In this document: positions 3,853-45,660 of the stretch, in pieces
Position numbering within the stretch: the stretch's first letter is position 1
Layout: every line of letters starts with the position of its first letter
NCBI GenBank assembly: GCA_026394495.1
Contig: JAPKYE010000066.1
Location: 1 to 45,660, forward strand
Direction of reading: 5' to 3'
DNA from: Methanobacteriota archaeon
Lineage (GTDB): Archaea; Thermoplasmatota; E2; DHVEG-1
DNA: 45,660 bases
Program-made: the position numbers and the translations under genes
The notes under the pieces: generated by a model
What the model was told of the DNA's origin: nothing
Database searches by the model: none
What the model saw: the letters and a program-made list of their open reading frames with translations, nothing else

Positions 3853-4023
3853 AGGGAAATTATGGGGGGGATCCTCTCTTGTGTTGACATTGAATCTGAC
3901 CACAGGTGCGCAGGAATGGCAGAGACCGTTGGATCGTGCGGTATTCTATCAGAACGGGACGATGTACCGTATCACAACCGAACAAGGAGACCTGCTGGTC
4001 AGCCCAAAACACAAAGTATATGT
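3853..4023 (+). repeat. Cassette 5' block, copy 4
   Basis: Fourth copy, with the same spacer sub-type as copy 2 (GGAAATTATGGGGGG). GTG at 3881 and SPKHK near 4001-4015. Confidence 0.88.
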
Positions 4024-5206
4024 TGCGAATACGAGTTATTTGGATTCTTTACCGAGTTCTTTGCAGAGTTGTTTGGTTGATATCCCCACGCCAATATCAA
4101 AAAGCAGGTTTTCATACGTCCAAATCTTACAATTTTTACAAAGGCTAAGTGCAACGAATTCAACATCTTTCAAGTGTGATCCGAGGAGTGTTTTTGCTTT
4201 TGGTATAAACGATATGTATTCACGCTTTGGCACAAAGGTGATAATGTCGAAAACAAGAAATGCGAGTTCGTTAAACGCTTTCGCGGATAATGATGATTTC
4301 CGCATCAGTTCTTTTTTATGGTTGTTAAACTCCTTGAGTAACGTTTCAGGTCCAAATATAAGCAAAGATTCATTAAAAACGATGCTGAGTATATCACCTT
4401 GTGAGATGAGGATGCGGAAGAATACGTTAGAGTCGAGAACGACTTCCATTTACAGCAGTCCTTCTTTTTGTAATCGTTTCAGCATTGATCGTTTGACCTT
4501 ATCTGACATTTCATCCGCATCTTTCTCCGTGAATGTTGATTTGGAGACGATGCGTAACGCTTTTTTTAACGCTTTATCGCGTGAAATTTTTTCCGATGCT
4601 TCTGCTTGTACGAGTTTTGACCAGTTCACCCAAGAGAACCGTTTCATCTCTGCTTTGATTTCATCTGGGATGGTGAACGTAACCGACGACATTCACAGCT
4701 CACCTCGTTTCACCATCTGCTCGAATCTCCGTAATTGCTCGACTTTACGGACAATGATTCTTCGAAACACCTCTGCCCAGTTTACTTCAGGGTATTCTGA
4801 TAATTTCTTCTTAAGTTCCGATGGGATGGATAATGTTACCGTTGCCATGTTACCCTCCTTACATAATTCTGTAAATATACATAATTATGTTGAAGTATTT
4901 AATTCTTTTGTTCTACCATATTATTCGTTAACACCAGTAACTACTATCTATAATGAAATACCACAAGGAAAAACAATCTATTTCTTAGATGCCCAAGGCA
5001 CCCCGATATCGGTGTCATCAATTCAAAAAGAATCGTACGATGGACCGATTTACGACGTTGACGTCCCCAACGACATCGTCCTTGTCAGACGAGGAAACGA
5101 CTCAGCGTTCTGGTCTGGAAACAGCGACACCCAGCTACAACAATTTCAGCCTCCGGTACATGCGCGACGGGGACAGCAGCTGGACCAACATCACCACATC
5201 CTATGA
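3881..5206 (+). CDS. Hint (intein-like) domain, cassette 4, complete core
   Basis: The only cassette whose Hint frame is uninterrupted to the terminal Asn. It runs from GTG 3881 through TGAQEWQRP, GDLLVSPKHKVYV, a stop-free insert antisense to a toxin and two antitoxins, then YSLTPVTTIYN, FLDAQGTPISVSSIQKESYDG, YDVDVPND, RRGN and WSGN (Asn at 5120-5122) followed by Ser. It then continues out of register with the extein and stops at 5206 (DTQLQQFQPPVHARRGQQLDQ..). Hint domains catalyse protein self-cleavage or splicing. Block A with the nucleophilic Cys is missing, so at most C-terminal cleavage seems possible, unless this segment is joined to a complete 5' part elsewhere. Penultimate Gly instead of His is unusual. 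Whether it is translated from the GTG is unproven. Confidence 0.65.
   Translation: MLTLNLTTGAQEWQRPLDRAVFYQNGTMYRITTEQGDLLVSPKHKVYVANTSYLDSLPSSLQSCLVDIPTPISKSRFSYVQILQFLQRLSATNSTSFKCDPRSVFAFGINDMYSRFGTKVIMSKTRNASSLNAFADNDDFRISSFLWLLNSLSNVSGPNISKDSLKTMLSISPCEMRMRKNTLESRTTSIYSSPSFCNRFSIDRLTLSDISSASFSVNVDLETMRNAFFNALSREIFSDASACTSFDQFTQENRFISALISSGMVNVTDDIHSSPRFTICSNLRNCSTLRTMILRNTSAQFTSGYSDNFFLSSDGMDNVTVAMLPSLHNSVNIHNYVEVFNSFVLPYYSLTPVTTIYNEIPQGKTIYFLDAQGTPISVSSIQKESYDGPIYDVDVPNDIVLVRRGNDSAFWSGNSDTQLQQFQPPVHARRGQQLDQHHHIL
4036..4449 (-). CDS. PIN-domain toxin (VapC-like), cassette 4
   Basis: A 137-residue PIN protein: D6 (VLDSNVFF), E40 (LLKEFNNHKKEL), D95 (HLKDVEFVALSL) and a weaker last acidic site near E113 (WTYENLL). 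Same sub-family as the cassette 1 and 3 toxins but strongly diverged in sequence. It directly abuts its antitoxin (4450). Replacement of the usual SxDxR-type motif by TYEN may weaken catalysis. Confidence 0.8.
   Translation of the reverse strand: MEVVLDSNVFFRILISQGDILSIVFNESLLIFGPETLLKEFNNHKKELMRKSSLSAKAFNELAFLVFDIITFVPKREYISFIPKAKTLLGSHLKDVEFVALSLCKNCKIWTYENLLFDIGVGISTKQLCKELGKESK
4450..4692 (-). CDS. VapB-like antitoxin A, cassette 4
   Basis: An 80-residue antitoxin: MSSVTFTIPDEIKAEMKRFSWVNWSKLVQ is a strand-helix-helix opening typical of VapB/ribbon-helix-helix antitoxins, followed by a charged helical tail ending KRLQKEGLL. Its ATG overlaps the TGA region of a second, shorter antitoxin immediately upstream (TGAATG), so three genes are likely co-transcribed. 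Confidence 0.82.
   Translation of the reverse strand: MSSVTFTIPDEIKAEMKRFSWVNWSKLVQAEASEKISRDKALKKALRIVSKSTFTEKDADEMSDKVKRSMLKRLQKEGLL
4693..4848 (-). CDS. Second, short VapB-like antitoxin, cassette 4
   Basis: A 51-residue frame, MATVTLSIPSELKKKLSEYP..VNWAEVFRRIIVRKVEQLRRFEQMVKRGEL. Its first 30 residues parallel those of the next gene (VTFTIPDEIKAEMKRFSWVNWSKLVQ), so it is a second antitoxin of the same kind lacking most of the toxin-binding tail. A strong Shine-Dalgarno (AAGGAGGGT) lies just before the ATG at 4848. It is the first gene of a three-gene unit with antitoxin A and the PIN toxin. It may provide DNA binding or be left from a nested insertion. Confidence 0.8.
   Translation of the reverse strand: MATVTLSIPSELKKKLSEYPEVNWAEVFRRIIVRKVEQLRRFEQMVKRGEL
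4861..4903 (-). promoter_or_regulatory. Promoter and palindromic operator of cassette 4 toxin-antitoxin unit
   Basis: The perfect 12-base palindrome ACATAATTATGT lies at 4879-4890, with a matching half-site ACATAATT at 4861-4868, 18 bases away. A TATA-like box (GAATTAAATA on the minus strand) is at 4896-4903. The palindrome sits between the TATA box and the likely transcription start, a position expected for antitoxin autorepression. Confidence 0.6.
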
Positions 5207-10298: not shown

Positions 10299-12451
10299 TA
10301 AAAACAAGGGCGGCTCGATACCTAATCGTTCTTACATTTGTCCTCCCCCTACTCCTCATGACCTCTACGATGGTCCATGCTGTTCCCCTAATCCCACAGA
10401 ACATTATCATCGTTGACAAGACAGGAAACGGCGATTATACAACCATAACAGAAGCAGTACAACACGCAGAACCAACAGACATCATCCAGATACAACCAGG
10501 CATATACGCAGAACATACCATCAACATAAATAAAAAAATCTCGTTGATCGGTACCAATACAGAAACATGCATTGTCGATTGCTCAGGCAACCCTGGATTC
10601 AACCTTGAAAGCAGTTATGTCGACATCACACACCTACAAATCATAAACAGCAAAGAACAAGCAATCTTGATACAATCAGAAAGCACTGGATGCACCATCT
10701 CCAATTGCGACATCTACCCATCCCAAGACAACGGCATCGATATGTTATCATCATACAATACCATCACAAATTGTACATTCTACGGAGATACAATGGGCAG
10801 ACAAGCGATAAAAATACAAGGTTCAAACAACAAAGTAGACCGCTGCACACTCCAACATTTCAGCAACGGCATCATGATCATTGCATCAGCAAACGATAAC
10901 ACCATCATAAACTGCAATATTCTAAACAATGAAAACGGTGTTGACATTCGAATGAATTCAAACAACAACATCATCATAAACAATAACATTTATTCCAACT
11001 TCCAAGGAATAAAAATATGGCAAAACTCCAATAACAACGTTATTTACCTCAATAACATCTTCAAGAACGATAACGATGCCATTGATGAAAATATAAACCG
11101 TTGGGACAATGGAGAACGCGGTAACTACTGGAACGACTATACAGGACCTGATAATGATGACAATGGGATCGGAGATACACCATATGATATCTCAACACAG
11201 AACCAAGATCACTTCCCGATAACAACCTTGCTCCTCCCCGACGTCATCATTGCACCAACAAACATTGAACACGTGACAAGCACCTCAGATACAACACCAA
11301 CATTCAACTGGGATCCTGCAATCTACAGCAAAGGCATCCATGGATACTACGTCACTATTGACGTTAACCCAGAGGTCTTCACAGAAAGCACAACATGGAC
11401 CTCATCACTCAGCCTCACCGATGGAATCCACACATTCAAAATCCGCGCTGAAGGTTCAGATGGGAAGATTACCACCGTTACCTTGAGATTCAAGATTGAT
11501 ATCTCTCTCAATGACCTTGATCATGATGGCTGGAGCGACGAAGATGAAAACATATATGGAACAGATCCTACCAACCCAGAAAACTATCCCTCAGACACAG
11601 ATGGTGATCATCTCCCAGATACTGTAGATACGGATGATGATAACGACGGGTACAGCGACCTTATGGAGTTCTCCTACGGGACCGACCCCTATGATTCAAA
11701 GGAGTACCCACCGGATCTCGATGGAGACAAGATTCCCGATGAGGATTCACCAGACGGAAAGTACACAGGAGATATCGACGATGATGACGATAGCCTCCCA
11801 GACCTCATCGAACTGCAGATAGGATCAAATCCCAAGAACGGAACCGACGCTCGCAAACTCTACCTCGGCGGTACACCTTACTACCTCGTTGACACAACGC
11901 ACACAGGAGTCTATACCATCCTCTATGATCCCGTTACGCAGAAGACCAGAAACATCGAGAAAAAGGACGATATATACCTGATCGACGCAAATGGAGATGG
12001 GATGTGGGACTTCACATACAACACCGCCGACCTCTCTGTATCATCCTACTCATGGCAGAATGTACAACTTCTCACAATAGGTCTTATCGCACTCTTCGTC
12101 GTGGTAATCATAGGCATCTTCGTCTTCCTGATTAGGAGAAAACGACCAAGTACTAAAGGTCCACAGGACCTAACAAACAGACACCCTGTGGCCATAGAAC
12201 CAGAAGAACACGAGATCATCGACCTATACACCGATACGACGATAAAAGACACAAGAACATGCCTCATGCACATCCAGAAAGACATAAACCGCTACTTAGA
12301 GCAACTAAACCAAATAAACAAACAGCTGAAACCAACAACAGAAGAAAGAACAAGAATCAGAGAAAGTGAAATACACGACATTGAAGCAGAAATCGACGCG
12401 CGGCTATTAGAAAAATTAAAGATGAAAGATAATGATCTATCACACAGGTAA
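10295..12451 (+). CDS. Membrane-anchored beta-helix (NosD/PbH1) protein with Ca-binding repeats
   Basis: A 718-residue surface protein: signal sequence (LIVLTFVLPLLLMTSTMVHA), a right-handed parallel beta-helix (about 36-300, opening GNGDYTTITEAVQHAEPTDIIQIQPG and running into many Asn-rich PbH1 turns), an Ig-like segment (about 305-405), Asp-rich Ca-binding repeats of thrombospondin-3 type (about 408-510, DTDGDHLPDTVDTDDDNDGY), a transmembrane helix near 592-615 followed by RRKR, and a helical cytoplasmic tail. The design is the same as the PKD protein at 5552: outer binding domains, one helix, inner coiled coil. Beta-helix domains often bind or cleave polysaccharide; catalytic residues are not identifiable here. 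Confidence 0.82.
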   Translation: MIKTRAARYLIVLTFVLPLLLMTSTMVHAVPLIPQNIIIVDKTGNGDYTTITEAVQHAEPTDIIQIQPGIYAEHTININKKISLIGTNTETCIVDCSGNPGFNLESSYVDITHLQIINSKEQAILIQSESTGCTISNCDIYPSQDNGIDMLSSYNTITNCTFYGDTMGRQAIKIQGSNNKVDRCTLQHFSNGIMIIASANDNTIINCNILNNENGVDIRMNSNNNIIINNNIYSNFQGIKIWQNSNNNVIYLNNIFKNDNDAIDENINRWDNGERGNYWNDYTGPDNDDNGIGDTPYDISTQNQDHFPITTLLLPDVIIAPTNIEHVTSTSDTTPTFNWDPAIYSKGIHGYYVTIDVNPEVFTESTTWTSSLSLTDGIHTFKIRAEGSDGKITTVTLRFKIDISLNDLDHDGWSDEDENIYGTDPTNPENYPSDTDGDHLPDTVDTDDDNDGYSDLMEFSYGTDPYDSKEYPPDLDGDKIPDEDSPDGKYTGDIDDDDDSLPDLIELQIGSNPKNGTDARKLYLGGTPYYLVDTTHTGVYTILYDPVTQKTRNIEKKDDIYLIDANGDGMWDFTYNTADLSVSSYSWQNVQLLTIGLIALFVVVIIGIFVFLIRRKRPSTKGPQDLTNRHPVAIEPEEHEIIDLYTDTTIKDTRTCLMHIQKDINRYLEQLNQINKQLKPTTEERTRIRESEIHDIEAEIDARLLEKLKMKDNDLSHR

Positions 12452-36386: not shown

Positions 36387-37304
36387 TTAGATGTCCGTAG
36401 AAGGAAGAGCCCCTAACTGTGGTGGAGCATATTGAGTAGCTGAATGATATACCTTTGGTATAAGTGGCTCAGGTAAACAAAAAAGAATTTCCACATCAAA
36501 TACTGCGGCGCAAGCAGTATAAGAGAGAGCATATTCAAGCCAGCTGGTTTCGCCATGTGCATATAGCACACAAGCAGCCCAATAACATTTAATGAGTCTG
36601 CAGTGAGCTGCTGCCATACACGACTGAATACCTGTTTCAGGGTTCGGATTGCAACTTGGTTCTGGACCGCAACTTATTGCATATCTCGGTGTTGCTCCTT
36701 CGGAAAATGGTACAGATGTAAACGTTCCATCATAATTATTTATTTCAGTCCTTGGAATACCAAATCTATCGTACACAATTAAATTCTGCCCTCCTTCACC
36801 CAGATGGGAAATAACGCCGCTAGGGCTGTAGGTGAGTTGAATCTCTTGACTGATACTGAATACTCCTGTTCCGTCATTCAAAAAAATTGTAACACGATGT
36901 GATCCAGAATTTGCCACAGCAAAGTCCAATGTATAACCAACATCTGCGTAGAAAATTGCTGTACCAAGTGGTTGGTTTGTAGGGTAACTTGTTGGACCTG
37001 TAAAAGTGTTTTCATCTAGGCCGAAATAAATATCTACTACATTTCCTTCTTTTCTCGATACAACCAAGTCTAAAAGACCATCATCGTTCAAATCTCCTGC
37101 ATTAAATATTACCTGTTTGCTCCAGGGTTGGAACTGAAGAAAAATTAAGGGACTCTTTAGACTCTTATCGACGATGGAGGCAGTTCCACGAGATTCACAA
37201 GGGCAACCACTCATACCAAGAGGGGCAAATACAATCATCGTAGTCATTGTGGCCATGAATAGGCCCATCAGCTTTATTTTTTTCATATTCTGTTTGTTTT
37301 TCAT
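36387..37304 (-). CDS. Secreted FG-GAP/VCBS-repeat protein
   Basis: A 305-residue exported protein: signal sequence (IKLMGLFMATMTTMIVFAPLGMSGCPC; the Cys may be a lipobox) then FG-GAP/VCBS beta-propeller-like repeats (FNAGDLNDDGLLDLVVSRKEG, IFYADVGYTLDFAVANSGSHRVTIFLNDGTG). The last 90 residues are Cys-rich (about 12 Cys), with CGPEPSCNPNPETGIQSCMAAAH and CYWAACVLY, suggesting disulfides or metal binding. FG-GAP repeats often bind Ca and partners. Its promoter carries the TTCGAA element shared with the other surface genes here. Confidence 0.78.
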   Translation of the reverse strand: MKNKQNMKKIKLMGLFMATMTTMIVFAPLGMSGCPCESRGTASIVDKSLKSPLIFLQFQPWSKQVIFNAGDLNDDGLLDLVVSRKEGNVVDIYFGLDENTFTGPTSYPTNQPLGTAIFYADVGYTLDFAVANSGSHRVTIFLNDGTGVFSISQEIQLTYSPSGVISHLGEGGQNLIVYDRFGIPRTEINNYDGTFTSVPFSEGATPRYAISCGPEPSCNPNPETGIQSCMAAAHCRLIKCYWAACVLYAHGETSWLEYALSYTACAAVFDVEILFCLPEPLIPKVYHSATQYAPPQLGALPSTDI

Positions 37305-37419
37305 TTTTTTTCACATCCTTTATTTTTTTTTATGTTGTTTCGTTTTTTTTCTTTGTTTGAGGCACCACCCAAACAAATTAAACAAATTTTTTATAATTAT
37401 ATTATTTGTTGTATTTTAA

Positions 37420-37470
37420 TGTTTAAATAGTTTGTTTCAAGAGTTTCGAATTTTCACAAGAGATTCGAAC
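37420..37470 (-). promoter_or_regulatory. TTCGAA-N13-TTCGAA element and TATA, for the FG-GAP gene
   Basis: Element core 37443-37470 with two TTCGAA boxes 19 bases apart centre to centre, directly upstream (minus strand) of TATTTAAAC near 37421-37429. Leader of roughly 90 bases to the ATG at 37304. The leader sequence resembles that of the SBBP gene (44669-44760). Confidence 0.6.
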
Positions 37471-37649
37471 AAAATAACCATATTCTTTGTAAAAAAAATA
37501 AAATATACAGTACATTATATATAATACATAAAAATTAACAGAAACAAACCTAACGATAACGACCACATGCTTTCCTGAAAAGATTGGGGGGAAAAATAAG
37601 ATGAACAAAAACATGTCATCCTATTTCCTTGTTTTACGTTATGGTTGTC

Positions 37650-37703
37650 TATAGTATAAATAATTTATTTCAGAACTTTCGAATTATCACAAGAGATTCG
37701 AAC
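37650..37703 (-). promoter_or_regulatory. Orphan copy of the TTCGAA promoter element
   Basis: Core 37676-37703 beside a TATA-like TTATTTATAC (37652-37664). It lies downstream of the regulator gene and points toward 37480-37640, where no gene is seen. Either an unannotated RNA or a promoter left by gene loss. Confidence 0.5.
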
Positions 37704-37785
37704 AAAAAAAACCGTACAGATGCAAACACCATCGACAAATAAAAAAAAATGCTGACACATCAGATCATACACAAGAACATTCTGC

Positions 37786-38541
37786 TCATAACAGAGTAAA
37801 ATCTTTCCAGGTATCCTTAAGTCCTTCCACGGCCATCTGAATTTCAACATTAAGTTTATATTTCTGGAGAATTCGAGTGACCGCCCCCCGGTCACAAAGC
37901 ATATATCCTTTTTTCTCACCCTGCACCGACATCATAACAACGTTACAATTCACAAGCTTGGTAAGATGATACGACAGTGTAGACGGAGCAACAGCAACAT
38001 TCTCTAAAAGATCTTTATGGGATAATGTGTGACCACGGATGAGCAGCAACACAATCCGCATAGGAATCCGCTGTCTGAGAATGGACAAAACCTCTTTTTC
38101 TCTCAGACTGACCGTACTCTCACTCACATAAAATCGTTTATAATAGCCTTTGTCATCACGTACCGCAGTAACAAGATTGTTTTTCTGCAAATACACAAGG
38201 TGATATTTTGCAAGAGAGACATTAATCTGGAGAAGCTCCGCGATTTTACTGAGATGCAAACCGGGGTTCTGAAAGACAATTGTATACAGTTTCCCCCGAA
38301 TATCCTGAAAACGTCTATCCTGAAGAGAGGCGTCTTTATTTTTCCCAAGGTAATACCCAATTAACTCCCCCTCTTTTTTAATCGTAATTAACCCTTTTTT
38401 TTCCATGTACTGCAGCTGAGAAGCAATCTCGATGATCTTCCTATTGAGAATCTCTGCGATCTTACTGATATGAATACCAGGATGCTGCGCAATAAGATCG
38501 CAAATCATGGTTTGGAGTTCATCATCAAGAAATTCAGACAT
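37786..38541 (-). CDS. Transcription regulator with three winged-helix domains
   Basis: A 251-residue protein composed of three winged-helix units: about 8-68 (TMICDLIAQHPGIHISKIAEILNRKIIEIASQLQYMEKKGLITI), about 80-150 (RGKLYTIVFQNPGLHLSKIAELLQINVSLAKYHLVYLQKNNLVTAV) and about 160-235 (MRIVLLLIRGHTLSHKDLLENVAVAPSTLSYHLTKLVNCNVVMM). No sensor domain. It follows a small membrane protein by 5 bases in the same operon, a membrane-protein/wHTH pairing seen repeatedly in euryarchaea. It is the best local candidate for binding the TTCGAA elements. Confidence 0.85.
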   Translation of the reverse strand: MSEFLDDELQTMICDLIAQHPGIHISKIAEILNRKIIEIASQLQYMEKKGLITIKKEGELIGYYLGKNKDASLQDRRFQDIRGKLYTIVFQNPGLHLSKIAELLQINVSLAKYHLVYLQKNNLVTAVRDDKGYYKRFYVSESTVSLREKEVLSILRQRIPMRIVLLLIRGHTLSHKDLLENVAVAPSTLSYHLTKLVNCNVVMMSVQGEKKGYMLCDRGAVTRILQKYKLNVEIQMAVEGLKDTWKDFTLL

Positions 38542-38546
38542 ATACT

Positions 38547-38816
38547 CTATCTCTTCAGCGTCACAAGAAACAAAAGAACAAGGATAACAACATCCACGAT
38601 TCCTCCAATTGTGCCGACATCAAACAACTGAGGGGCATCTTTGACAAATAAACCGATACTCAACAGCAATCCTTTTATAAGAAACAGGATAAACACACTG
38701 CTCACAACCAAAAGCTTTGCGTTTCGATATCGTCGATAACTCCCCAGTGAGATAATCAACAAACCCAGGGAAAATATCGTAATACAAGCGCTTATGACAA
38801 CATGCTCGATCTCCAT
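38547..38816 (-). CDS. Small three-helix membrane protein
   Basis: An 89-residue protein that is almost entirely three membrane helices (VVISACITIFSLGLLIISLGSYRRYRN, LLVVSSVFILFLIKGLLLSIGLF, IGGIVDVVILVLLFLVTLKR). It lies between the PQQ protein and the three-wHTH regulator on the same strand, five bases before the latter. It may be the membrane partner that tethers or signals to the regulator. Confidence 0.78.
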   Translation of the reverse strand: MEIEHVVISACITIFSLGLLIISLGSYRRYRNAKLLVVSSVFILFLIKGLLLSIGLFVKDAPQLFDVGTIGGIVDVVILVLLFLVTLKR

Positions 38817-38872
38817 TTTCTTATTCCACCCGCATATGTTTAACCCCTATGAGAATATAATAATTGCCATCC

Positions 38873-41518
38873 TTATTTTCTTTTGTTGATGTATCGTTGA
38901 CGACGGACAACATTGGCAGCAACGGCAACGACAAATACGAAAATGACAAGACCGCTGCTCATCAGATACCACAGTAGTACAGTGACGCTGCCGAACATCT
39001 CGCCTAACGAAGAAATCGTGATCGTATGGGTACTAAAGTGAGGGATACGGACGAAGACATATAACCCTGTATCGGTTAAGATACGTAGCCATGCAGGATC
39101 AGAAGATTCCAGGATGGTAAAAAACGCAGCGACATCATGTTCTTCATCAATCGACATATCATCATATGTAAGATTGATTTTATCAAGATCAGAGAGCACA
39201 CCTTCACCGATACGAACAACAAAAACAGTTCCTTTTGAACCATCATCTGCACCAACAGTAAATGAAATCATTTGCTCTGTTAAATCAAGTAATTCAATGT
39301 GCAATCCCTCAATATACGATGAAATAATGTTTTTCTCTTGGCTTATTACATTTATCTGTGCTCCAACATTCCCCTCCCTGGATTCTTTATCTATAAGATA
39401 TTGGACTGAGGCAGCAGTCGTATCAGTACCTTGTGAAGTAGGTTCTTGCTGTTTTTGCTCCATGATGAAATTTGCTTCTTTTGCAGTTTTATCTTCTACA
39501 AAAAAACTTTGCTTTGTATTGGGGAGAAATCCTTCTATAATTCCTGTGACCGTATAGGTTCCCGGTACGAGAGATACCACATATTTTCCTTCATCATCGG
39601 TTGACGTAGGTTTTATGGTGCCATCGGTACTGATTGCGTAGATACTCACACCACTCAAAGGATTTCCTAAATTATCCTGAACCAAACCATAAATCCATCC
39701 TTGTAGCGTGGTTTCATCTTGATTTATCACAGTGATTGTTGTTGAATCCTGTGTATATCCTGTTTTTGTTGCGGTTATCATGTATCTTTGAGCAGTATCA
39801 ACGGATGGAGCTGTAAACGACACTTGTCCATTGGCATCAGTTTGTTTGGTTTGATCGTTAAAGGAGACATCTGCTCCAGGTTGTGCTGTCCCTGTTTTTT
39901 CGTCAGTGATTGTAACAGTGAAAATAGTTTGTTCCTGAACAGTAGGGTTGACCGTAATAGATAATTGTAATTGAGCTGGTTCTGAGGATTGATTTGGAAT
40001 TGTTATTTCAAGTGGATGTGACCATTCGCTTTCTGCGTCATATATGTCTTTTGCTTTGACCTTAATATCATAGGATCCAGGAAGCGTCCACATATGTGTT
40101 GCACTCAAGGTCGCACCAGAGTCGACAGGGCCAATCCAGTCGCTATAGGTGTCGTCACCCCAGGAGAAATTATAGAAGATCTGATCGCCATCCGAATCTG
40201 TTGTTGGTGTTACATAGAAGGTGTAAAGCACATCCTTTTCAGTTGCCTCGGACGATGGACCAGTAGGCACCGCAGGAATATCTGGTGGTGTATTATCTCG
40301 AAATGCAACCAATGCCCTCTTATATCCTGCATACACGATGCGATCAGCAATTGCAAAAGTAAAAGGCAGCCCCCAACTTGATAAGGATAATTTAAGATTA
40401 TACTGCCAGATTAACACTCCTGTATTCGCGTTTATACAATGGATAGTACTATTATACTCATCAGCATCACCAAAATATACTTTATTATCAGCAAAAGCAG
40501 GCTTGGATATGGATAGGATAGGTTGGACGATAGTATAATTCCATTGATATGCACCGGTCGTACTATCAAGACAATACAGTCGAAACGGGGAATTTTTCGA
40601 GCAGAAATATACTTTTCCATTATGAACAACAGTGTCTGTTGGTGCCCCTGTAAGAGGATATGCCCATTTCACGGTACCATTATTCGGATATAAACAGATG
40701 GTAGCATTGTAGGTAGAAGAATGTACTCCGGTATAGATATAACCACCCTCATCAACAGAAATCATGTTAGTAGGCATCTCGCTCACCGGGGTCTTCCAAT
40801 AAAAACTTGTGGTATGATCTTCTGGGTTTCCTGTCGCATTCAGACAGGAGATAAAACTCATACCACTGCCAGTGCTATATACAGCCAAATACACTCGGTC
40901 ATTTGCTACTGTTGGAGATGAAAGACAATAGTAATTTTTCTCTATTATTGTGTAATTCCATAGCCAATTCCCGTCAGTATCCAAACACACAACTTTCCCA
41001 TCCCATGTGACAGCGTAAATTTTCTCATTGTAGAGTGTTAGCGCTGACTTGACCGGCCATGAAGAAATTATTTTTTGGCTCCATTGAAGTTGCCCTGTGG
41101 AAGTATTGTAACAATTGAGATAAGCGCCAGATTCTCCACAACCTCCTACGAATATATGAGTGCCGTTACTCACAGGAATGGCTTTCCCTTCAGAGAAACT
41201 GTAATCACTGAGATGTATTGTTGAGAAAACTTGATGTCCTGAGCCTGCATCCACACAGGCTAGATCATTATTGTGTGATATCATAAAGACTTTCCCGTTG
41301 TCGATAATGATCCCACTTATTTCCCCTCCTCGCAATATATAGCTATCTTGTATGGTAAATATTGTAGCATTTGTCTCTGCTGTAGATGAAGATGTTGAGC
41401 CAGTATGTGCAGGGTCGTGACCCATCATCGGCCACCAATCAACGGCACCAACACTGCCAACAAAGACACTGGAAACCATCAATATACAGATACCTAAACT
41501 TACTGTTTGTATTTTCAT
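38873..41518 (-). CDS. Large surface protein: PQQ beta-propeller, PKD, Ig-like domains, C-terminal anchor
   Basis: An 881-residue exported protein. Signal sequence (VSLGICILMVSSVFVGSVGA), PQQ/BamB-like propeller repeats (about 30-410; WPMMGHDPAHTGS opening, then GKVVCLDTDGNWLWNY, GAYQWNYTIVQP and similar), a PKD domain (about 415-505; YNFSWGDDTYSDW), a Big-like module (about 510-600; PGADVSFNDQTKQTDANGQVSF), a carboxypeptidase-regulatory-like domain (about 610-680), a domain before the membrane, and a C-terminal helix (LLWYLMSSGLVIFVFVVAVAA) with RRQRYINKRK inside. PQQ-type propellers here are probably binding scaffolds, not enzymes. TTCGAA element in its promoter. Confidence 0.85.
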   Translation of the reverse strand: MKIQTVSLGICILMVSSVFVGSVGAVDWWPMMGHDPAHTGSTSSSTAETNATIFTIQDSYILRGGEISGIIIDNGKVFMISHNNDLACVDAGSGHQVFSTIHLSDYSFSEGKAIPVSNGTHIFVGGCGESGAYLNCYNTSTGQLQWSQKIISSWPVKSALTLYNEKIYAVTWDGKVVCLDTDGNWLWNYTIIEKNYYCLSSPTVANDRVYLAVYSTGSGMSFISCLNATGNPEDHTTSFYWKTPVSEMPTNMISVDEGGYIYTGVHSSTYNATICLYPNNGTVKWAYPLTGAPTDTVVHNGKVYFCSKNSPFRLYCLDSTTGAYQWNYTIVQPILSISKPAFADNKVYFGDADEYNSTIHCINANTGVLIWQYNLKLSLSSWGLPFTFAIADRIVYAGYKRALVAFRDNTPPDIPAVPTGPSSEATEKDVLYTFYVTPTTDSDGDQIFYNFSWGDDTYSDWIGPVDSGATLSATHMWTLPGSYDIKVKAKDIYDAESEWSHPLEITIPNQSSEPAQLQLSITVNPTVQEQTIFTVTITDEKTGTAQPGADVSFNDQTKQTDANGQVSFTAPSVDTAQRYMITATKTGYTQDSTTITVINQDETTLQGWIYGLVQDNLGNPLSGVSIYAISTDGTIKPTSTDDEGKYVVSLVPGTYTVTGIIEGFLPNTKQSFFVEDKTAKEANFIMEQKQQEPTSQGTDTTAASVQYLIDKESREGNVGAQINVISQEKNIISSYIEGLHIELLDLTEQMISFTVGADDGSKGTVFVVRIGEGVLSDLDKINLTYDDMSIDEEHDVAAFFTILESSDPAWLRILTDTGLYVFVRIPHFSTHTITISSLGEMFGSVTVLLWYLMSSGLVIFVFVVAVAANVVRRQRYINKRK

Positions 41519-41625
41519 GATTTTTCCTCACAAAATCTCTATTCCATATAGAGAAGATTTAAATATTCCACTAGTTGCATCCTCACAGTAATATTTCTAC
41601 TTAGTGTTAGTTTTCTTTTTCATCA

Positions 41626-41675
41626 TATAAATACTTTATTTCAGGAGTTTCGAATTTTCACAAGAGATTCGAACA
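41626..41675 (-). promoter_or_regulatory. TTCGAA element and TATA, for the PQQ gene
   Basis: Core 41648-41675; the TATA-like GTATTTATAT on the minus strand is near 41627-41636. The ATG at 41518 is about 110 bases downstream. Confidence 0.6.
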
Positions 41676-42340
41676 ACGTTTCCTGAAAATAATCCAATGC
41701 CCCGAATTGTAAACGGATGAGTATATGCAGAGTTTCAAATACAAATTCAAACACCAGGAATAAGGAGACACAGGATTTTGAACGGCTCTTTGTCAGGAAA
41801 AAAAACAGGTCCTAAACTAATACAAACCGAAAGAAAAAAAAGAAAGAGTCTTTTATCTTGACTCTTCAGCGAACTTTTTTGTTTTTTGTACCTGTTAGAT
41901 TATGGGTCGTCACAGTCGCGGCAAGGGTCTCTCCCTTGCAGAGTGTTATTGAATGTCTACACTGGAATCAGATCGGTCGGATCTGTTCCCGGGGTGGGGT
42001 GAATTACGTTTATATACACGGTTGCCGTAACATTATGTCCAGGTATGGGAAGGTCATTGATTGTGTAGGTAAACGAGTCAGTACCATGACCGCTCCACGT
42101 GCCCGTCGGCGATGTGTGTGTAGGAGTATAATATAAAAAATACCCGCTACTTAGCATATGAGACCATGGCAAAGCAGGGCCACCCACCATATATACAACT
42201 CCATGAGATGGTTGCGTTACCAAAACAATTGTTATCGGATCCCCTTCAGGATCGTAATCGTTACTAAGCACGCTGATTTTGTTATTGACTGAATCTGTCG
42301 CAACAGATACATAGTCGTCAACAGCCACCGGCGGTTCGTT
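41630..42340. repeat. Segmental duplication, copy A
   Basis: About 0.7 kb that is nearly identical to 44751-45465. It spans a promoter element, an intergenic region, a 3' hairpin and the last approximately 125 codons of the SBBP gene. Confidence 0.85.
41921..41939 (-). terminator. 3' hairpin after the SBBP gene
   Basis: GCAAGGG (41921-41927), loop TCTCT, CCCTTGC (41933-41939): a perfect 7-base stem about 18 bases after the stop codon of the minus-strand gene. The copy at 45039-45057 is conserved. Likely a 3'-end or stability element. Confidence 0.5.
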
Positions 42341-44653
42341 TTGAGGCCCAAATTGGATTTTTGTCACAAAAACATCATAGATATACGGTGAATAGCCGGC
42401 GAAGGTGGTGTCATAGGCACCGGGTGTCGTCGGAAAATCAGGCGACGACGTAATTCCGCAGATGTAGACGCAATTATTTTGATCAACCACAATACCATTG
42501 ATCCGTTCATATTCTTCGCCACCGATATAGGTGCTGAAGGAGAGTTGGTTTCCCTGTGCAGAAAACTTCGTTATAAACCCATCGCTGCCATAACCAGTGT
42601 CGAGGTCACCATCATAAGGATTAAGGATTGGGAAATCTGGGGATTGGGTGGTTCCAGCAATGTAAGCACAGTTATTTTGATCAACTTTAATACAACAGGC
42701 ATTATCATTATATGTGCCGCCGAGGTAGGTACTATAGACCAGTTCGTTTCCCTGCGCAGACAGCTTCGACACGAATGCATCACCATACACGCAACAATAA
42801 GTCCCATCGTAGGGATTCGCCATCGGGAAATCATTTGACCATGTATCTCCGGTGACGTAGGCGCAATTATTTTGATCAACCGCAATATCCCATGCCTGAT
42901 CCCAGCCTGTTCCGCCGAGGTAGGTACTATAAACGAGTTGGTTTCCCTGCGGGGAAAACTTCGAGATAAACACATCGGCTCCTCCGTTGAAGGTTTTGTC
43001 ATACGGATTCACTGTGGGAAAGTCATTGGATTTTGTCCATCCTGTGACATAGACGCAGTTCAGTTGATTTATCGCAATACCCAAACTTAATTCGCTACCT
43101 GTGCCGCCAATATAAGTGCTATAGATGAGTGTGTTTCCTTGCGGGGAGAATTTTACCACAAAGACATCCCAGTCACCGTTTAAGGAACCATCATAGGAGT
43201 CCACGGTCGTCGGAAAATCATCCGAGCTTGTGCTCCCTGTTATGTAAGCATTGTTGTTTTGATCCACTACAATACCGAAGGCTTCATCTTCTTGTGTGCC
43301 GCCGAGGTAGGTACTATAGACCAGTTCGTTTCCCTGCGCAGACAGCTTCGATACAAACGCTTCATCGAGGCCACTCGTACTCATGTCAAAGGGATTCACC
43401 ATCGGGAAATCATTAGAGTAGGTAATTCCTGTGACGTAGGCACAACCATTTTGGTCAACTGCAATACTGCATGCCCCATCATCGTCTGTGCCGCCGAGGT
43501 AGGTACTATAGACCAGTTCGTTTCCATGCGCAGAAAACTTCGTCACAAATGCATCATCACCGCCGTTGTAAATACCATCATATGGATTCATCATAGGGAA
43601 ATCACACGATCTCGTTGCCCCGGTGACATAGACGCAATCGTTCTGATCAACCTCAATATCTAATCCCATATCGTTCATCATTCCGCCCAGGAAGGTGCTA
43701 TATTCAAGCGCAGGGTCAATGACCAAAGCACGAGAACGATCATATCTTTCATTACACGCAAATCCAAAACTCTGCGGAGCCTTCCGCAGTTCGTATCTTC
43801 CTTGGATATCCTGCTTCATATCGTTGTTCACTTGGTATATCAAGGGTTTTTGTTCCTGGGTCGTTCCCAATCGGGTACTTGCCACGATGTTCCCGGAGGA
43901 TGTCAACTGGAAATCATGTAATCCGTCGTAGCGAATGGTGATCTGCGAGGGATCGGCACCAGGGTTCACAATAAAATCATATTTTAACGTGTTACCTTGA
44001 GGATAGTAGCGGAGATCAATACCCGGGTAAATATTTTGATACACAACCGACTGATAATTCGGAACATCCGTGTACCATTTATGGGGATCATTTCCGATAA
44101 AATAATTGTTGTAATGAGACAACAACCCCTCACCAACGATACAAGCCTGGTTGCTTGCATCCACGAACTGTGCCACGACAGAAATCATTTCTTTTGGCGA
44201 TGATTTTGGTTCATCACGCATATGAATAGGTTCATCTTGTTGTATGTTGTTTTCAGAAGAAGAGGATCCTTCAATTTCCCTGGTGAACACGGATACAACC
44301 TTATCCTTACATAAGTACACAGTTGCTCCTAAGGCATGGGTCTGGAAGAGTACTTCATCAGGGAATTGCCCTTTATTAGCCGTAAAAAACAGTGAGGATG
44401 AAGCGAACTGATCGTATATCATTTCTGATTGCGAAGGTAGCGTATCGAGAACTCTGGGACTATCACTCTTTTTGACAGTATCGGAGATCGTTTTGTCCTC
44501 AATTTGACAGGATTTCCCAACGCTTTGTACAGCGTTTTGATCAGAGATGTTCAACGAAATTGTTTGGCCACCGATACACGTGGCAAAATTTGATAGAACA
44601 AACAATGCAACTATTCCTATTTCTAATGCTTTGTTCAGATTCCTATTTTTCAT
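41957..44653 (-). CDS. SBBP-repeat surface protein with cadherin-like C-terminal domain
   Basis: An exported protein of about 898 residues. Signal sequence (LEIGIVALFVLSNFATCIGG), a domain ahead of the repeats (about 85-300; FTANKGQFPDEVLFQT..KYDFIVNPGADPSQITIRYDG), then eight SBBP beta-propeller repeats of the type YSTYLGGT..D.A..I.VDQNNCAYVTG.T.S.DFP..NPYD (about 305-745), and a tandem-95/cadherin-like domain (PPVAVDDYVSVATDS..YDPEGDPITIVLV). I choose the ATG at 44653, after GGGTGA, over a GTG at 44668. No membrane anchor follows, so it may be secreted or attached to the cell surface by others. TTCGAA-type promoter. Confidence 0.88.
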   Translation of the reverse strand: MKNRNLNKALEIGIVALFVLSNFATCIGGQTISLNISDQNAVQSVGKSCQIEDKTISDTVKKSDSPRVLDTLPSQSEMIYDQFASSSLFFTANKGQFPDEVLFQTHALGATVYLCKDKVVSVFTREIEGSSSSENNIQQDEPIHMRDEPKSSPKEMISVVAQFVDASNQACIVGEGLLSHYNNYFIGNDPHKWYTDVPNYQSVVYQNIYPGIDLRYYPQGNTLKYDFIVNPGADPSQITIRYDGLHDFQLTSSGNIVASTRLGTTQEQKPLIYQVNNDMKQDIQGRYELRKAPQSFGFACNERYDRSRALVIDPALEYSTFLGGMMNDMGLDIEVDQNDCVYVTGATRSCDFPMMNPYDGIYNGGDDAFVTKFSAHGNELVYSTYLGGTDDDGACSIAVDQNGCAYVTGITYSNDFPMVNPFDMSTSGLDEAFVSKLSAQGNELVYSTYLGGTQEDEAFGIVVDQNNNAYITGSTSSDDFPTTVDSYDGSLNGDWDVFVVKFSPQGNTLIYSTYIGGTGSELSLGIAINQLNCVYVTGWTKSNDFPTVNPYDKTFNGGADVFISKFSPQGNQLVYSTYLGGTGWDQAWDIAVDQNNCAYVTGDTWSNDFPMANPYDGTYCCVYGDAFVSKLSAQGNELVYSTYLGGTYNDNACCIKVDQNNCAYIAGTTQSPDFPILNPYDGDLDTGYGSDGFITKFSAQGNQLSFSTYIGGEEYERINGIVVDQNNCVYICGITSSPDFPTTPGAYDTTFAGYSPYIYDVFVTKIQFGPQNEPPVAVDDYVSVATDSVNNKISVLSNDYDPEGDPITIVLVTQPSHGVVYMVGGPALPWSHMLSSGYFLYYTPTHTSPTGTWSGHGTDSFTYTINDLPIPGHNVTATVYINVIHPTPGTDPTDLIPV

Positions 44654-44740
44654 CGTATTTTCACCCACATTAATCTTTTTTTTGTTTGAGCACCGCCCAA
44701 AACAAAATTATTTACAATTATATTATTTGTTGTATTTTAA

Positions 44741-44791
44741 TATTTAAATACTTTATTTCAGGAGTTTCGAATTTTCACAAGAGATTCGAAC
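44741..44791 (-). promoter_or_regulatory. TTCGAA element and TATA, for the SBBP gene
   Basis: Core 44764-44791; the TATA-like TATTTAAATA is at 44741-44750. About 90 bases to the ATG at 44653. Confidence 0.62.
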
Positions 44792-45465
44792 AACGTTTCC
44801 TGAAAGTCATTCAATGTCCAGACTTGTAAACGGATGAGTATATGCAGAGTTTCAAATACAAATTCAAACACCAGGAATAAGGAGACACAGGATTTTGAAC
44901 GGCTCTTTGTCAGGAAAAAAAACAGGTCCTAAACTAATACAAACCGAAAGAAAAAAAAAGAAAGAGTCTTTTATCTTGACTCTTCAGCGAACTTTTTTGT
45001 TTTTTGTACCTGTTAGATTATGGGTCGTCACAGTCGCGGCAAGGGTCTCTCCCTTGCAGAGTATTATTGAATGTCTACACTGGAATCGGATCGGTCGGAT
45101 CTGGTCCCGGGGTCGGGTGAATTACGTTTATATATACGGTTGCTGTAACAAAATGTGTAGGCATGGAAAATCCATCATTGATTGTGTAGGTAAACGAGTC
45201 AGGACCATAACCGATCCACGTGCCCGTCGGCGATGTGTGTGTAGGAGTATAATATAAGGAATACCCGTTACTTTCCCTATGAGAAGACCATGGAAAAGCA
45301 GGGCCACCCACCATAGATACAACACCATGAGATGGTTGTGTAAAAGAAACAAGTGTTATCGGATCCCCTTCAGGATCGTAATCGTTACTAAGCACGCTGA
45401 TTTTGTTATTGACTGAATCTGTCATTACAGATACATAGTCGTCAACAGCCACCGGTGGTTGGTTT
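44751..45465. repeat. Segmental duplication, copy B
   Basis: Partner of 41630-42340; includes the promoter element, the noncoding stretch, the 3' hairpin and most of the small cadherin-like gene. Confidence 0.85.
45039..45057 (-). terminator. 3' hairpin after the cadherin-like gene
   Basis: Same GCAAGGG/CCCTTGC stem with TCTCT loop as at 41921-41939, 18 bases after the stop codon. Confidence 0.5.
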
Positions 45466-45578
45466 GAAAAGACGTTTGGTGTGGTGTTTTGTTTACCCAT
45501 ACCTGTAGTGCTTGTTATCAACAGCCCTGCAATAACAATTGTTATTGCGCCTATATACATATACATTTTTTTCTTCAT
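45075..45578 (-). CDS. Small exported cadherin-like (tandem-95 type) protein
   Basis: A 167-residue protein: signal sequence (MYIGAITIVIAGLLITSTTGM) followed by one cadherin-like beta-sandwich (PPVAVDDYVSVMTDSVNNKISVLSNDYDPEGDPITLV..GPDSFTYTINDG..VTATVYINV). The domain is nearly identical to the C-terminal domain of the 903-codon SBBP gene and arose with it by segmental duplication. GGAGG precedes the ATG. The start of another TATA/TTCGAA-type promoter (TTTAAATACATTATTTCA) is visible at the window end (45643-45660). Confidence 0.82.
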   Translation of the reverse strand: MKKKMYMYIGAITIVIAGLLITSTTGMGKQNTTPNVFSNQPPVAVDDYVSVMTDSVNNKISVLSNDYDPEGDPITLVSFTQPSHGVVSMVGGPAFPWSSHRESNGYSLYYTPTHTSPTGTWIGYGPDSFTYTINDGFSMPTHFVTATVYINVIHPTPGPDPTDPIPV

Positions 45579-45660
45579 ATCTTATTTTCCTCCCTATTTC
45601 TAGGTATAAAATTTTTTTTCTAGTGTTATATAAATGGCTTAATTTAAATACATTATTTCA

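Follow-up and report, generated by a model that had tools for sequence, protein, structure and literature searches.

We analyzed a 45,660-nucleotide stretch of DNA (the window; JAPKYE010000066.1, the whole of contig C133) from an uncultured Thermoplasmatota archaeon, in which a cluster of surface-protein genes carries a repeated promoter element, TTCGAA-N13-TTCGAA, together with a gene for a winged-helix regulator; the genome that was searched comprises 2.22 Mb in 141 contigs. The genes of the cluster lie on the minus strand and, read in that direction, encode a small cadherin-like (Big_9) secreted protein of 167 amino acids (45075..45578), an SBBP beta-propeller surface protein with a cadherin-like domain (41957..44668; at most 903 amino acids from a GTG start, an ATG start also being possible), a PQQ beta-propeller surface protein of 881 amino acids with a C-terminal membrane segment (38873..41518), a small membrane protein of 89 amino acids with probably three membrane helices and the C-terminus TLKR (38547..38816), the 251-amino-acid regulator with its three winged-helix domains (37786..38541), and an FG-GAP secreted protein of 305 amino acids (36387..37304).

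An earlier note on this DNA had described the regulator as a three-winged-helix protein, and an AlphaFold model (mean pLDDT, 80.9) confirmed this. A fold search with the three-domain model returned only generic multi-winged-helix matches, with TM-scores to the query below 0.35, which we take to be useful only as confirmation of the fold. The regulator (P0001) scored above the Pfam gathering score for PF24266 (45.6 bits), PF01047 (42.4 bits), PF13412 (41.4 bits), and PF01022 (33.9 bits), and all three of its domains match the HVO_0163, MarR, and ArsR-type families (PF24266, PF01047, PF01022). It shares these domains with HVO_0163-type, MarR, and ArsR proteins but differs from them in carrying three in tandem and in its constant pairing with a small membrane protein: a gene for a membrane protein of about 89 amino acids immediately adjoins the regulator gene in 23 of the 23 fetched loci where the membrane protein was found. 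This pair is preceded, in most cassettes that bear the element, by the gene for a large surface protein with a membrane segment at its C-terminus. The regulator family lies within the Thermoplasmatota, with named matches that include Thermoplasmatales archaeon SM1-50, and the membrane protein family is present in 44 of 99 related genomes; the membrane protein has no clear Pfam family and a weak similarity to DUF7471.

Exact copies of TTCGAA-N13-TTCGAA occur four times in the window (37445-37469, 37678-37702, 41649-41673, and 44766-44790), within two bases of where the earlier note had placed them beside TATA boxes, and all four, in the minus-strand reading, have a TATTTA-type TATA box at a constant distance. 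A whole-genome search for the exact pattern found one further match, on contig C27, which lies within an open reading frame and has no TATA box. When up to three mismatches were allowed, a 39-bp core of the element, TTCGAATCTCTTGTGAAAATTCGAAACTCCTGAAATAAA, was restricted genome-wide to the four window sites. The bare two-box pattern with up to three mismatches was no richer in the window than in shuffled sequences, so the signal consists of the exact copies together with their common spacer. As seen from the sequence and from an alignment of the copies, the element is more aptly described as a 19-bp unit repeated directly, with 2 bp between the second repeat and the TATA box; in the window, the unit TTCGAATCTCTTGTGAAAA is followed by the unit TTCGAAACTCCTGAAATAA. 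In the operator-promoter of the SBBP gene (44743..44790), the distal unit lies at 44790-44772, the proximal unit at 44771-44753, and the TATA box at 44750-44743. The corresponding positions are 41673-41655, 41654-41636, and 41633-41626 for the PQQ-membrane protein-regulator operon (41626..41673), 37469-37451, 37450-37432, and 37429-37422 for the FG-GAP gene (37422..37469), and 37702-37684, 37683-37665, and 37662-37655 for the copy that has no conserved open reading frame behind it (37655..37702). The start of a fifth promoter that the earlier note had seen at the window end is also visible ahead of the cadherin-like gene (45643..45660, TGAAATAA-TG-TATTTAAA); only TGAAATAATGTATTTAAAT can be read before the contig end cuts off the rest. 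A segmental duplication of about 760 bp (first copy, 41585..42341; second copy, 44702-45465; 90 to 94% identity) spans two of the operators, and the FG-GAP and SBBP promoters (37384-37472 and 44705-44793) are 93% identical over 89 bp, while the 37678 copy shows little likeness to the others beyond its operator (67% over 89 bp).

Sister loci were first exposed by a one-mismatch search, and a regulator search then placed paralogues of the regulator beside several of them. These loci contain one or two units in the same placement before a TATA box: TTCGAATCTTGTTAAAAAA and CTCGAAACTTATTAAATAA at C79 (five related copies, two of the promoters being identical over 143 bp), TTCGATAGTTTCCAAATAA at C13 (five related copies), ATCAAAAATTTCCCAAGAA and CTCAAAACGATTTCTATAA at C39 (three related copies), TTCGAAACTCTTCAAAA at C103 (two copies, slightly more distant from the TATA box), and TTCGAAAATCGTTAAAATA and TTCTAATTTCATCAAATAA at C134. 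The common form of the unit is TTCGAAAATCTTCCAATAA, units like it are present in most related genera, and a repeat search of intergenic DNA that used no motif regained the same class of unit in six other genomes (G012, G020, G022, G025, G027, and G029). Since the TTCGAA palindrome is kept in just 20 of 38 related half-sites, it is not the conserved unit, and the earlier proposal of two palindromic boxes that fit two dimers is not supported as a recognition rule. A second rule, by which three winged helices would call for two boxes and two winged helices for one, fails in G029, G012, and G023, where two-domain regulators are paired with two-unit operators.

We found that sites of this kind are not randomly placed in the genome. 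A search for a degenerate half-site plus TATA box gave 14 matches, 13 of them in the cassettes C133, C79, and C13, and none in the reversed control; the 14th is on C65, ahead of a gene for an 85-amino-acid secreted protein. The earlier idea of a shared promoter element for a surface-protein regulon, encoded with its regulator and membrane partner, is supported and extends to five further regulator units in this genome and to related genera, in which the regulator-membrane pair again adjoins a repeated promoter element of its own. In other genera, genes for short secreted proteins adjoining the same cassette also have the operator in front of them (L085 6670-7000, L122 6310-6513, L127 2330-2600, and L132 3300-3570), and these proteins contain PAPNSGDGxPDGSGF-like repeats.

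The units differ more between loci than within them. In the window genome, units from the same locus differ on average at 2.9 of 19 positions, compared to 6.7 for units from different loci (permutation P = 5e-5), and across 16 cassettes operator distance is correlated with regulator distance (Mantel r = 0.65, P = 1e-4), a relationship to which genome relatedness contributes. The regulators of C39 and of C18 in G022, a genome from another genus, pair in the tree (82/84 support), and both loci have the odd unit version CTCAAAAC. At the level of sequence, the locus-specific unit versions diverge together with their regulators.

The earlier note had listed an orphan copy of the element at 37676. 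The copy is present, beginning at 37678, but it is no orphan, since it faces a conserved hairpin on the minus strand (37587..37630) and appears to drive a small RNA of about 55 to 60 nucleotides, with a start expected near 37635, a U-rich end near 37575, and the 3' arm UUCAUCUUAUUUUUCCCCCC. This candidate was delimited with two covariance models (R1 and R2), folds, and pair counts. At C79, C13 (twice), and C39, the same hairpin comes after the regulator genes. A covariance model found five copies in the window genome and three more in G022; a refined model run on 45 genomes of the family returned the same eight copies plus one weak, unrelated match. An operator unit and TATA box precede all eight hairpins, and the constant distance from unit to hairpin (34 nucleotides in the window genome and 32 to 33 in G022) places the expected start site at the foot of the hairpin. 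The hairpins are more stable than shuffled sequences (z, -2.7 to -8.3), pairing is retained in 99.1% of the alignment cells, with three pairs changed on both sides, and the covariation score was matched by 1 of 500 shuffles. When the operator-facing strand is read as RNA, the non-Watson-Crick cells comprise 13 G-U and one C-A, while on the other strand they become 13 mismatches and one wobble; the RNA strand is therefore the operator-facing strand. Of the two arms, the 3' one (UUCAUCUUAUUUU(U)CCCCC) hardly varies whereas the 5' one drifts, a pattern to be expected of a functional 3' arm.

Other candidates around this hairpin did not hold. A small protein made from the 37678 promoter was ruled out, as its reading frame is not conserved between copies; weak small RNA matches in G027 and G079 resemble start sites read backwards; and R1 matches in genus g7 (G006, G026, G033, and G037) were lost under the refined model and represent another conserved hairpin. 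The latter, GGGGAGGAAGGAGGGGGGAAAAATATGAAG...TTTTTCCCTTCCTCACC, is strong and in four genomes (L067, L068, L069, and L070, near the centre) adjoins the same gene (MVEISPFKGITYNKEK...). Rfam 15 gave no match at its gathering score in the window, L044, L046, or L049. In G022, a two-unit operator with its small RNA also lies between other genes on C17 (L081 9811-9928); the 20 kb that were fetched contain no cassette.

The complement of the 3' arm, GGGGGAAAATAAGATGAA, has the form of a ribosome-binding site plus start codon. We found it, exact, at the starts of three unlinked secreted-protein genes of G022, encoding two PQQ propellers and one PKD-like protein, with near matches at a fourth secreted protein (one mismatch) and at a PQQ and a PKD protein (two mismatches each); the flanks of these G022 sites are mutually unrelated. 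In the window genome, it is exact at the start of a C9 gene for a 689-amino-acid PKD surface protein; what appears to be the G022 counterpart of this protein has almost the same start site. The arm of the window RNA itself matches a cadherin-like gene at C79 with one mismatch over 20 nucleotides, and the ribosome-binding site of the window cadherin-like gene, GGGAGGAAAATAAGAT (45594-45579), is a partial match. In a ranking by duplex energy, five of the six MKKKMYMY genes fell among the first 20 of 125, which is weaker evidence; as shuffled arms reach similar energies, this ranking was replaced by a test of the spacer. For a control, we took all GGRGG-N8-ATGAA sites in both genomes, excluding the RNA loci (n = 45). 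The exact spacer AAAATAAG occurred in 4 of the 45, compared to 0.009 expected from the other spacers (P ~ 2e-10 with columns taken as independent), and all four sites precede secreted or surface proteins.

Taken together, these data are best explained, with a probability that we put at roughly 55%, by self-controlled surface-protein regulons with locus-specific winged-helix regulators that are coupled to a trans-acting small RNA masking ribosome-binding sites. Each cassette would form one such regulon, in which the regulator is made from a single predicted operon with a large beta-propeller surface protein and the small membrane protein. The multi-winged-helix regulator would bind the 19-bp units, two in tandem in the window, which end 2 bp upstream of the TATA box and lie over the B-recognition element; the window regulator would control all five local units, namely, its own operon, the SBBP, FG-GAP, and cadherin-like genes, and the small RNA. 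Repression over the B-recognition element is slightly favored over activation because the proximal unit abuts the TATA box. The small membrane partner would probably relay a signal from the surface to the regulator. Once transcribed, the small RNA would use its 3' arm to pair with certain mRNAs for secreted proteins, at their ribosome-binding site and start codon, and so block their translation. Switching a cassette would then act on transcription for one set of surface proteins and on translation for another. The core idea of the earlier note is thus partly supported, being right in outline, while the system appears larger than it stated and the small RNA was overlooked. We also considered, as a tentative and rather doubtful extension, that the paralogous cassettes are mutually insulated programs, with private operators read only by their own regulators and several of them making the same small RNA to silence translation of surface proteins from outside the program, which would allow a coordinated, possibly exclusive swapping of coats.

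Several observations weigh against this explanation. The 41649 and 44766 copies are not independent because both lie in the segmental duplication, and so the window copies are not fully independent of one another; C102 has a regulator with no clear repeated element; and the Mantel correlation still includes genome relatedness. The small RNA was found in only 2 of the 23 genera of the family, and its 3' arm is paired within its own hairpin and must open to act. The spacer test treats columns as independent and was made after the G022 matches were seen, and the duplex energies count as weak evidence: among 60 shuffled arms the best reached -29.6 kcal/mol, compared to -26.9 kcal/mol for the best real target.

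Among other explanations, the one that survives best, though we regard it as unlikely, is that the hairpin is a local signal, such as a terminator, a decoy for a protein that recognizes ribosome-binding sites of this kind in RNA, or the beginning of a very small gene on the opposite strand. The opposite strand does carry an ATG behind a sequence like a ribosome-binding site, GGGGGAAAATAAG, the 5' arm is similar to the target start site, and C-rich and U-rich tracts follow the hairpin. Against this, the G-U cells show that the RNA comes from the operator-facing strand, the reading frames opposite to it are not conserved and span just 9 to 17 codons or reach a stop after two, the near-invariant arm is the 3' arm while the mimicking 5' arm drifts, and one copy stands alone with its operator. 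It is quite improbable that the unit instead serves some other factor acting genome-wide, or is an extended B-recognition element for a particular TFB. The unit abuts the TATA box, its conserved final AATAA could itself be a B-recognition element, and MsvR, a member of another archaeal regulator family, uses TTCG-type motifs at this position (PMC3729527), but the half-site plus TATA box is almost confined to cassette loci, and the version at each locus tracks its own regulator, where a global factor would favor one common version. Finally, we consider it very unlikely that the element is a mere footprint of recent promoter or gene duplications with no dedicated regulator, since, despite the segmental duplication, the similarity of the FG-GAP and SBBP promoters, and the identical C79 copies, the 37678 copy is dissimilar outside its operator, and the same unit occurs in the same place in independent loci and genera with differing flanks and ahead of genes as unlike as those for beta-propellers, cadherin-like and FG-GAP proteins, and an RNA.

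The proposed regulon with its co-encoded regulator has partial counterparts in known systems. Like the regulator as proposed here, MsvR of methanogens is an archaeal winged-helix autoregulator, with TTCG-containing sites upstream of or over the B-recognition element and TATA box of its own promoter, where it has been proposed to repress (PMC3729527). MsvR differs in its site (TTCGTA-N4-TACGAA or TTCG-N7-9-CGAA) and its V4R redox domain (PMC3729527), nor does it come with a membrane partner, a surface-protein regulon, or a small RNA. The window regulator is not itself an MsvR, as it scored 19.5 bits compared to the NCBIfam cutoff of 220, over residues 153-208 only, and the window has TTCGAA-N13-TTCGAA, or rather 19-bp direct repeats, in place of TTCG-N7-9-CGAA. 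TFB-RF1 of Pyrococcus furiosus also acts at promoters with a weak B-recognition element but recruits TFB to activate a putative ABC transporter operon (PMC5937170). An archaeal precedent for masking of ribosome-binding sites is provided by sRNA162 of Methanosarcina mazei (PMC3510493), which differs in that it targets a regulator mRNA through an unstructured linker and is not a multicopy family under regulon operators (PMC3510493). In the literature library searched, no description of this regulator-operator-small RNA system was found. The shared operators and the small RNA with its matching start sites hint at an undescribed cell surface switch. For the choice that uncultured sediment archaea make among their many large surface proteins, it would supply a concrete circuit whose parts can be named: the regulator, its membrane partner, the operator, the small RNA, and the predicted target start sites. 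Paralogous regulators and operators that drift apart together within a single genome would also be unusual, and archaeal small RNA families for which targets are strongly predicted are rare.

Additional features were seen in the leaders of the surface-protein genes. The PQQ leader (window 41515-41605, minus strand) and its C79 counterpart (L044 ~10640-10733) have a common short open frame, MQLVEYLNLLYME and MQLVEYLNLLHIE, respectively, behind a GTGAGG motif and ahead of the main start, which possibly encodes a leader peptide. Several large surface-protein genes have a second conserved hairpin in their 5' leaders, UUUGUUU(U)GGGCGAUGCCUCAAACAAA (about -6 to -10 kcal/mol). It lies at 37360-37410 and 44680-44730 on the minus strand of the window and upstream of the L049 gene for a 1,448-amino-acid protein, both large L045 genes, and the L046 gene for a 746-amino-acid protein, and it may be a separate leader regulatory element. 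Elsewhere in the window, two paralogous open reading frames (1423-2535 and 3881-5206) have a near-identical beginning, MLTLNLTTGAQEWQ, and common upstream DNA with a GGGGGGG run.

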